A stretch of DNA of 32,343 bases, taken from Nitrososphaerota archaeon (GTDB lineage: Archaea; Thermoproteota; Nitrososphaeria; Nitrososphaerales; Gagatemarchaeaceae). Numbering within the stretch: the stretch's first letter is position 1; each line of letters begins with the position of its first letter. The stretch lies in contig JAGWHE010000012.1 of the NCBI GenBank assembly GCA_028866945.1, positions 1 to 32,343 on the forward strand, written 5' to 3'. Below the pieces are notes generated by a model. It was not told the origin of the DNA and did no database searches. It saw nothing but the letters and a program-made list of their open reading frames with translations. Shown here one piece after another: positions 20,209 through 22,078 of this stretch. The position numbers and the translations under genes are program-made.

Positions 20209-20388
20209 CTACTCCGGCTGCTGCTTGGACCCTATCTGAACGAGCTGGAACTGCGCCTGGTACCTCTTCCCGTTGATCTCGACCTTCTGAGATGCCCAGT
20301 ATCCCACCGAGCCGGTCTTGAACTTCTTCTCCGGCAGGCCGACTTCGGCCACCTTCTGCGACCCTTCGTAGAGCTCAATTCGAGGCAT
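20209..20388 (-). CDS. Small conserved-looking protein (59 aa)
   Basis: A 59-residue soluble protein, MPRIELYEGSQKVAEVGLPE at the N terminus, beta-rich and ending in QLVQIGSKQQPE. The pattern of short strands with a YWASQKVEINGKRYQAQF stretch suggests a small barrel. A CTTAACTA box lies 26.5 bases before the ATG, which supports expression and rules out the longer frame to 20631. It converges with the cupin gene (9 bases apart) and is divergent from the methyltransferase. No function can be given. Confidence 0.72.
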   Translation of the reverse strand: MPRIELYEGSQKVAEVGLPEKKFKTGSVGYWASQKVEINGKRYQAQFQLVQIGSKQQPE

Positions 20389-20410
20389 GACCGCACGCCG
20401 GGGGCGACGA

Positions 20411-20418
20411 TAGTTAAG
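20411..20418 (-). promoter_or_regulatory. TATA box of 59-aa protein gene
   Basis: CTTAACTA on the minus strand, centred 26.5 bases before the ATG at 20388. Confidence 0.65.
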
Positions 20419-20501
20419 GGTGCCCGTCCTGCGAAGGCAACGCCACCGGAAATCATTGGTACGGGACGCCGCCCAGGCACCTGCGCGCCGCGGCAAAACG
20501 G

Positions 20502-20530: not shown

Positions 20531-21073
20531 GTGGACACGGCCGCCTTCGGACTTGCTCTCATGGTCATCGGCGTATTCTTGGGCGTGTTCCTTCTCGGCA
20601 CGGCTGCGATCGGCGCCGGATGGGAGCCCACCTCCCGCAGGAAGGTCAGGCGGATGCTGGAGCTCTCGGGGGCGGGGCCCTCTGACGTGGTCTACGACCT
20701 CGGCTCCGGGGACGGCAGGGTGGTCATCGAAGCCGCCCGGTCGTGCAACGCGACGGCCGTCGGGGTGGAAGCAGACCCGGCCAGGGTCCTCTATTCGAGG
20801 CTCGCCGTGTCCCTGAACAGCCTTGGCGGGAGGGTCAGGATTGTCTGGGGCAACTTCTTTCACGTGGACTTGAGCGAGGCGACCGTGGTCACCCTCTTCC
20901 TCACGCAAGGGGCCAACCAGAGGCTGAAGCCGAAGCTGCTCTCGGAGCTCAGGCCCGGGACCAGGGTCGTGTCATATGTATGGACCTTCGAAGGATGGGC
21001 ACCCAAGTCCGCCGACAGGGAGAACGAGCTCACACTCTATGTCGTCCCCGATCGGCCTGGAGGGTCGCCTTGA
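20531..21073 (+). CDS. Membrane-anchored aKMT/FAM173-like protein lysine methyltransferase
   Basis: A 180-residue class I SAM-dependent methyltransferase with one N-terminal transmembrane helix (residues about 5-28). SAM motif I is VYDLGSGDGRV (54-64) and the acidic post-I segment is AVGVEAD (76-82). The stretch GNFFHVDLSEATVVTLFL (107-124) followed by LKPKLLSELRPGTRVVS matches the archaeal lysine methyltransferase aKMT of Sulfolobus and the eukaryotic FAM173 proteins (ATPSCKMT, ANTKMT), which also have an N-terminal membrane segment and methylate lysines of membrane proteins. Soluble aKMT lacks that helix. The last four bases overlap the SET gene start, so the two are translated together. 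Lysine methylation of membrane or membrane-near proteins is the likely job. Confidence 0.8.
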   Translation: MDTAAFGLALMVIGVFLGVFLLGTAAIGAGWEPTSRRKVRRMLELSGAGPSDVVYDLGSGDGRVVIEAARSCNATAVGVEADPARVLYSRLAVSLNSLGGRVRIVWGNFFHVDLSEATVVTLFLTQGANQRLKPKLLSELRPGTRVVSYVWTFEGWAPKSADRENELTLYVVPDRPGGSP

Positions 21074-21600
21074 GGCGGGCTCCCGTCTTCATTGGAGACG
21101 CCGGCCCGAAGGGCAAGGGGGTCTTCGCCGCAGCTCCGATGAGGCGGTCGACCAGAGTCGCGTCTTTTCGAGGCAGACCAAGATGGATCTGGGAAATCCC
21201 GGAGGCTATCTGGCCATACACCGTCCAGGTGGACTACGACAGGTACGTCATCCCGAGGAAGGGCGGCGTCGTCTGGTTCTTCAACCACTCCTGTGAACCG
21301 AACTGCGTCATCTCGGGGGACGGCATCAAAACGGAAAGGAACGTCGAACGAGGGGAGGAGCTCACCTTCGACTACTCCACCGACGTCGACTGGCCGGGGT
21401 TCGCCATGAAGTGCAGCTGCGGGAGCAGGAGCTGCAGGGGCGTCGTCAGGGCCTACAGGTTCCTTCCGCCAGAGCTCAAGCTCAGGTACGGGAACAGGGT
21501 CGCCCCGTTCATACTGAAGGAATACCCTCAGAAGCAGGGGGCGGCGCGCTCTGGGCCTGCAGCGCCTGCTGGGCGGCGAGCTGCTCCTCGATCGCCCTGA
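21070..21600 (+). CDS. SET domain protein (protein lysine methyltransferase)
   Basis: A 176-residue single-domain SET protein. GKGVFAAAPM (15-24) begins the SET domain, FNHSCEPNC (71-79) and GEELTFDYS (95-103) form the SAM and substrate site with the pseudoknot, and CSCGSRSCRG (115-124) is the post-SET zinc-binding triad. All hallmark residues are present. The TTG start overlaps the stop of the aKMT-like gene by four bases (TTGA). After residue 150 the tail becomes Ala/Pro/Arg-rich and runs 92 bases into the convergent coiled-coil gene, so the natural end may be shorter. SET proteins are patchily found in archaea, and a known example methylates chromatin protein MC1-alpha in Methanosarcina. 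Confidence 0.85.
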   Translation: MRRAPVFIGDAGPKGKGVFAAAPMRRSTRVASFRGRPRWIWEIPEAIWPYTVQVDYDRYVIPRKGGVVWFFNHSCEPNCVISGDGIKTERNVERGEELTFDYSTDVDWPGFAMKCSCGSRSCRGVVRAYRFLPPELKLRYGNRVAPFILKEYPQKQGAARSGPAAPAGRRAAPRSP

Positions 21601-22078
21601 CCCTCCTCCCCAGCTCCTCCATGGACTTGCTCAGCTCCGCAATCACTGACAGCAGCTTCTGTTCCTGAGCCTCCTCCGTGGTCTGGATCTTGAATGACTT
21701 TGGCAGCCTCGCTTCTTTGATCATGAGGAGGACCAGCTGGTAGAGGCTCTGCTCCGTCCGCACCCGGTCTTCCTCGGCTGATTGGACCGTCCCCGAGTAC
21801 AGCTCCATCAGGCGCTCGAGGTCAGAGAACCTCCTGTCCTTGTACACCACCCTGTATTGGTACCCTGTGCCTATGGCGTTCGAATACGACCAGATCTCCG
21901 CCTTCCTGATCCTGTCGAACTGCGGGCCGTCCATGAGGTATTCGACGTCCCTTCCGGTGGTAGGGTTCTTCTCTGCCATGTTCGGCTTCAGCGAGCCGTT
22001 GTAGTAGGCGACGACGAAATCCTCCACCATCCTGTGCTTCATCGGCTCTCCGAAACCTGAATCGCCGGCTTCCATCAT
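21509..22078 (-). CDS. Coiled-coil protein of unknown function
   Basis: A 189-residue soluble protein. Residues about 14-100 form a mixed domain (VVAYYNGSLKPNMAEKN, DRIRKAEIWSYSNAIGTGYQ), residues about 105-125 a helix ending KEARLPKSFKI, and residues about 128-175 a coiled coil (KLLSVIAELSKSMEELGRRV, AIEEQLAAQQALQAQ). A CAATAAGG box lies 26.5 bases before the first of two ATG codons. The last 92 bases overlap the SET gene in antisense. No family recognised. Confidence 0.72.
   Translation of the reverse strand: MMEAGDSGFGEPMKHRMVEDFVVAYYNGSLKPNMAEKNPTTGRDVEYLMDGPQFDRIRKAEIWSYSNAIGTGYQYRVVYKDRRFSDLERLMELYSGTVQSAEEDRVRTEQSLYQLVLLMIKEARLPKSFKIQTTEEAQEQKLLSVIAELSKSMEELGRRVRAIEEQLAAQQALQAQSAPPPASEGIPSV

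Follow-up and report, generated by a model that had tools for sequence, protein, structure and literature searches.

A predicted membrane-anchored aKMT-like methyltransferase of an old family branch and its probably recent neighbour, a SET-domain protein gene, in a Nitrososphaerota archaeon

Background

Do two overlapping genes for putative protein methyltransferases constitute a dedicated methylation system, and does a membrane helix on one of the enzymes link archaea to the mitochondrial FAM173 proteins? These questions were raised by contig JAGWHE010000012.1 of a Nitrososphaerota archaeon (GCA_028866945.1), of which a stretch of 32,343 nucleotides was analysed, hereafter the window. The genome of the window (G000) comprises 1.27 Mb on 73 contigs, and its nearest named relatives are thaumarchaeal metagenome bins. 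In the literature on these enzymes, aKMT figures as an archaeal enzyme of broad specificity, and the FAM173 helix as a mitochondrial feature. An earlier note, made from the sequence alone, had read the locus as a two-enzyme operon for protein lysine methylation with a possible archaeal ancestor or analogue of the mitochondrial system. Our explanation, held with reasonable though not full confidence, is a different one: a membrane-anchored enzyme of an old aKMT branch and a soluble SET protein were joined by a recent relocation. The features of the locus are collected in Table 1.

Table 1 Features of the two-gene locus in the window
Feature	Position	Strand	Details or basis
aKMT-like class I (seven-beta-strand) methyltransferase gene, membrane-anchored	20531..21073	+	180 aa, GTG start
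N-terminal transmembrane helix, residues 3-25	20537..20605	+	AF2 model, alignment A1, hydropathy of homologues
Helix-core junction GAGW.P, conserved	20612..20631	+	alignment A1
SAM-binding motif I VYDLGSGDGR, residues 54-63	20690..20719	+	translation and alignment A1
Four-base overlap TTGA of SET start and aKMT-like stop	21070..21073	+	sequence; junction comparison
SET-domain protein gene	21070..21600	+	176 aa, TTG start
SET domain (PF00856), NHSC residues 72-75, ELTFDY residues 97-102	21112..21378	+	Pfam, motif reading
Post-SET-like CxCxxxxC motif, CSCGSRSC	21412..21435	+	zinc-binding type cysteines, aligned with KMT2 post-SET

Results and discussion

The aKMT-like methyltransferase

The frame of the first gene is open from the GTG at 20531 to the TGA at 21071-21073, and DLGSGDGR of the SAM motif I is intact. 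The start codon aligned with an ATG in the orthologous locus L071 and was within about one codon of the GTG start in L070, while an alternative upstream start at 20420 showed no conservation in the orthologs compared. The aKMT catalytic core ascribed to this protein in the earlier note was backed by sequence as well as by fold: the aKMT of Sulfolobus islandicus (PDB 5fa8) matched residues 31-162 with E=2.7e-37, and the top fold matches of the AlphaFold (AF2) model, which had a mean pLDDT of 85.6, were aKMT structures (5fad, 47% identity, TM-score 0.74/0.84). The S. islandicus enzyme (aKMT4; PDB 5fa8, 5fad and 5jwj) shares the SAM motif and the fold with the core of the window protein, but has no helix, the match beginning at its residue 9.

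The NCBIfam model NF041081 'protein-lysine N-methyltransferase' scored 123 bits, under its equivalog cut-off of 200 bits, thus the lysine specificity of the enzyme is not assured. Substrate switching is common among class I methyltransferases, and the helix-anchored branch might methylate a lipid, a quinone or another membrane-associated small molecule instead of protein lysines. We consider this rather unlikely: the low score and the strong split of the helix branch from the soluble aKMT-type forms in the core tree are in its favour, but the aKMT-typical stretches GNFF..D, AT.VT.FL and KL..EL are retained, and among solved structures an aKMT comes closest, its E-value being about nine orders of magnitude below that of any small-molecule enzyme. 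The most likely function is a SAM-dependent methylation of lysines in proteins on or close to the cytoplasmic side of the membrane.

The N-terminal helix and the topology

In the AlphaFold model a helix was predicted for residues 3-25, followed by a hinge of low confidence (residues 23-32) and the methyltransferase fold. Congeneric orthologs of 62-79% identity carried a hydrophobic helix ending in GAG[WY].P with the core directly after it; the copy in G030 is truncated at the end of a contig, and the helix region is absent from its readable sequence. G28, A29, G30 and P33 at the junction were invariant among the 12 proteins of alignment A1. Lysine and arginine are missing N-terminal of the helix, whereas R36, R37, K38, R40 and R41 follow on its C-terminal side. 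By the positive-inside rule, these flanking charges predict a single-pass protein with N-out/C-in orientation and a cytoplasmic catalytic domain, a placement that fits the requirement for SAM.

Many bacterial homologues have N-termini resembling signal peptides, and the helix could accordingly result from a wrongly assigned start or be a signal peptide, with the protein an ordinary soluble or exported aKMT. This is extremely improbable, as the charge pattern is opposite to that of a signal peptide, a cleavage-like site is absent, the helix and its junction are preserved in all 12 aligned proteins and the core by itself forms a separate branch. The membrane helix proposed in the earlier note was therefore conserved wherever the orthologs are readable, and the doubt voiced there, a poorly conserved N-terminal artefact, is contradicted by the alignment together with the core tree.

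An old helix-bearing branch of the family

A tree was calculated from the cores of 74 sequences with the helix columns left out. All 26 helix-bearing forms were placed on one side of a branch with support of 100/98, opposite to 31 soluble archaeal and 17 bacterial forms, the latter nearly all with a signal-peptide-like N-terminus. The helix-bearing set consists of 23 archaeal proteins from two phyla and three proteins of Pseudomonadota, two of which are encoded by Rhizobium and Agrobacterium plasmids. The archaeal helix forms stem from the genus of the window, from other families of the same class and from Thermoplasmatota, where 9 of the 194 sampled genomes possessed such a gene. In a tree without the bacterial helix forms and the remaining long-branched or atypical rows, they were united at 100/99; with the bacterial helix forms included, they may or may not be a clade of their own (AU p=0.156). 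Neither of the core trees (100/98 and 100/99) grouped the core of the window protein with the soluble archaeal aKMT. The phylogeny suggested in the earlier note was thus realised as far as soluble aKMT is concerned, with a separate branch as outcome. As the split between helix-bearing and other forms appears in a tree of the cores alone, the helix follows an old division within the core, and to judge from the sequences the helix-bearing aKMT-like proteins represent an old membrane-anchored subfamily rather than a local fusion.

Compared with S. islandicus aKMT, the helix cores stand on their own branch and the window protein stays below the equivalog cut-off. In S. islandicus, aKMT is reported to be the main lysine methyltransferase and nevertheless dispensable (PMC8927968), hence the loss of such an enzyme in some genomes is not unusual. 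The bacterial aKMT-like methyltransferases (e.g., Chelatococcus WP_019404735 and Salinibacter 5bxy) belong to the same core family, but according to hydropathy most of the rows read, with the exception of the solved 5bxy construct, have a signal-peptide-like N-terminus and a linker ahead of the core and are placed opposite the helix-bearing forms in the core tree. On plasmids of Chelatococcus, Agrobacterium and Leptolyngbya (L115, L116, L118), such a gene adjoins an amino acid permease gene; the N-terminus is signal-peptide-like in L116 and less clear in L115 and L118. On plasmid pAt1 of Agrobacterium tumefaciens (L175 707-2031), the helix-bearing methyltransferase gene has as neighbours genes for another methyltransferase and for a membrane protein with a VTT domain.

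The SET protein

The second frame is open from the TTG at 21070-21072 onwards, and its stop codon ends at 21600. The identification as a SET enzyme in the earlier note stood: the Pfam SET model (PF00856) scored 40.9 bits (cut-off, 22.4 bits), SET and post-SET of KMT2 matched with an E-value of about 1e-11, and the motifs GKG.FA, NHSC, ELTFDY and CxCxxxxC are all intact. NCBIfam searches revealed no relatives. The SET core, NHSC, ELTFDY and CxCxxxxC are common to KMT2-type, archaeal and bacterial SET enzymes and to the window protein; the latter differs from known SET-domain enzymes in its minimal size, in the absence of targeting domains and in its coupling to a transporter of the major facilitator type (MFS) in most congeners. 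The gene product is predicted to be a soluble SET-domain lysine methyltransferase. Chromatin as a target, mentioned in the earlier note, is unsupported. A histone-fold match was absent from the genome of the window, and seven of the ten genomes searched had one; with the genome of the window incomplete, this absence carries no information on the target. The 3' end of the SET gene overlaps the 3' end of a convergent gene (21509-22078, reverse strand) at 21509-21600, and likewise in L071; the final SET residues encoded in this overlap are of low complexity.

Gene neighbourhood and origin of the pair

The four-base overlap of the two genes given in the earlier note was confirmed, and both frames are open at the stated coordinates and strand. 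Nine congeners had both genes intact (G000, G008, G010, G015, G018, G027, G028, G029, G030), and in three of them, G000, G010 and G018, the genes adjoined each other. A different partner of SET was seen in at least four genomes (G007, G008, G015, G029), in which the SET gene directly follows a gene for an MFS transporter (Pfam MFS_1), again with an overlap of four bases. This conserved transporter-SET pair is located at L073 7893-9649, L075 7851-9748, L079 6865-8588 and L080 6129-8026. The aKMT-like gene was found downstream of Nob1 and eIF5A and ahead of TFB in six genomes (G008, G013, G015, G024, G028, G029), and at a third location in G027. The order MFS-aKMT-SET was present in G010 and G018. 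The Nob1-TFB locus was devoid of the aKMT-like gene in G000 and G010. In G000 the MFS gene is missing at this place, and a cupin gene and a small conserved gene are directly upstream of the aKMT-like gene. The small gene (window 20212-20430, reverse strand; 73 aa, MPRIELYEGSQKVAEV...), situated between the cupin and aKMT-like genes, had 77% identity to its counterpart in G010 (L070 11041-11259) and no Pfam match.

Most parsimoniously, the aKMT-like gene relocated once into the MFS-SET operon and MFS was lost later. In the ancestor of the three species, the gene would have moved from the Nob1-TFB locus to a position between MFS and SET, after which the MFS gene would have been lost in the lineage of the window; through this relocation the aKMT-like and SET genes would probably be co-transcribed in the window. 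We infer the direction of the move and the co-transcription, as well as the lysine specificity of the aKMT-like enzyme. Scans for terminators and bacterial promoters yielded nothing above chance, the promoter models being bacterial and the host archaeal. The paired copies clustered in both gene trees, with support of 96/88 for aKMT and 81/88 for SET, and the paired aKMT-like proteins are moderately diverged, with 71-78% identity to the window protein. A relocation inherited by vertical descent and a transfer of the cassette between species are not separated, because the species tree around the three paired genomes is weakly resolved.

A functional two-enzyme lysine methylation system, with a shared substrate or with a division of labour between membrane and cytoplasm, was the alternative to this relocation. 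The tight overlap, the adjacency retained in three species and the persistence of aKMT-SET in G000 despite the absence of MFS there speak for it. We regard it nevertheless as improbable. The overlap is not specific to the pair, since the MFS-SET junction has the same one, and the genes are unlinked in six of the nine congeners. Each gene also occurred alone, SET in G006, G007 and G023 and the helix-bearing aKMT in G013 and G024, some of these bins being incomplete. G012 retains SET, but its aKMT at the Nob1-TFB locus (L111 4912-5427) is a pseudogene with three stops; its near relative G015, unlike G012, has an intact helix-bearing copy. In G023, a rearrangement joins the SET and Nob1 loci: SET lies directly downstream of Nob1 (L081 7341-8442), the usual place of the helix-bearing aKMT in other congeners. 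Within the limited flanks available, SET was found at none of the 23 other helix-aKMT loci, and in a sample of 300 genomes of the class, no SET gene was next to an aKMT-type match outside the genome of the window.

The surveys of genus and class together with the synteny ruled out aKMT-SET as a conserved module. The two-enzyme operon of the earlier note hence holds for the overlapping genes themselves, whereas the adjacency is confined to three species and to one recent relocation; the pairing extends beyond this genome, but not to most congeners nor into the class sample. It is probably no dedicated system, but a recent and lineage-specific neighbourhood. A weak selection for the pairing is possible, because it persists in three moderately diverged species. 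The locus cautions against taking a four-base gene overlap for a sign of functional pairing: the partner has changed within a single genus.

Relation to mitochondrial FAM173

The likeness to the FAM173 architecture noticed earlier, an N-terminal transmembrane domain (TMD) before an aKMT-like core, was confirmed by the alignment and the AF2 model. The animal mitochondrial enzymes FAM173A and FAM173B (ANT-KMT and ATPSc-KMT) have this order of parts (PMC9006661, PMC5828452). In FAM173B, the N-terminus is not conserved and is followed by a TMD, a 'pre-MTase' segment and the MTase domain (PMC9006661), whereas the helix of the window protein begins at residue 3 and passes into the core without an intervening segment. 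FAM173B without the TMD is an active lysine methyltransferase, and its homology to archaeal aKMT has already been noted (PMC5828452). Eukaryotic FAM173 was absent from the PDB profile matches.

Mitochondrial FAM173 (ATPSCKMT/ANTKMT) could descend from the archaeal helix-bearing enzyme or have it as its closest relative among prokaryotes, and the archaeal enzyme could likewise methylate the rotor of the ATP synthase. The order of parts is identical, and all rotor subunits examined in the genus have a lysine in the loop (EKP or EKA); both points favour this reading. As a combination of ancestry and rotor methylation it is nonetheless very improbable. Helix-bearing relatives occur also in alphaproteobacteria, and since the rhizobial proteins carry the helix, the architecture is no evidence for an archaeal source of FAM173. 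A bacterial origin of FAM173 has been favoured, aKMT homologues being noted in alphaproteobacteria (PMC9006661). With the same architecture in alphaproteobacteria, a bacterial route is at least as plausible as an archaeal one. It is also doubtful, at about the level of the two-enzyme system above, that the helix-bearing enzymes of archaea and alphaproteobacteria form a distinct system for membrane-protein lysine methylation that is older than mitochondria, gave rise to FAM173 and modifies rotor subunits or further inner-membrane complexes of acid-dwelling archaea. With a helix conserved in a prokaryotic branch that covers two archaeal phyla and alphaproteobacteria, one could directly test how the methylation of mitochondrial membrane proteins arose, and methylated lysines would be expected in archaeal membrane complexes.

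The rotor subunits (ATP-synt_C) of the genus are of two types, both with the loop lysine. As a discriminating substrate this lysine was ruled out, for it is invariant in genomes with and without the helix-bearing aKMT, a point against the combined reading above. The rotor type with the shorter N-terminus was commoner among carriers of the helix-bearing aKMT, an association that amounts to one or two independent contrasts on the marker tree and thus adds little to that reading. ATPase operons move horizontally among acid-dwelling thaumarchaea (PMC6863869). The association is a lead, entangled with phylogeny. Among the rotor loci (L176-L223), none was found in the genome of the window, and both types were present in G010.
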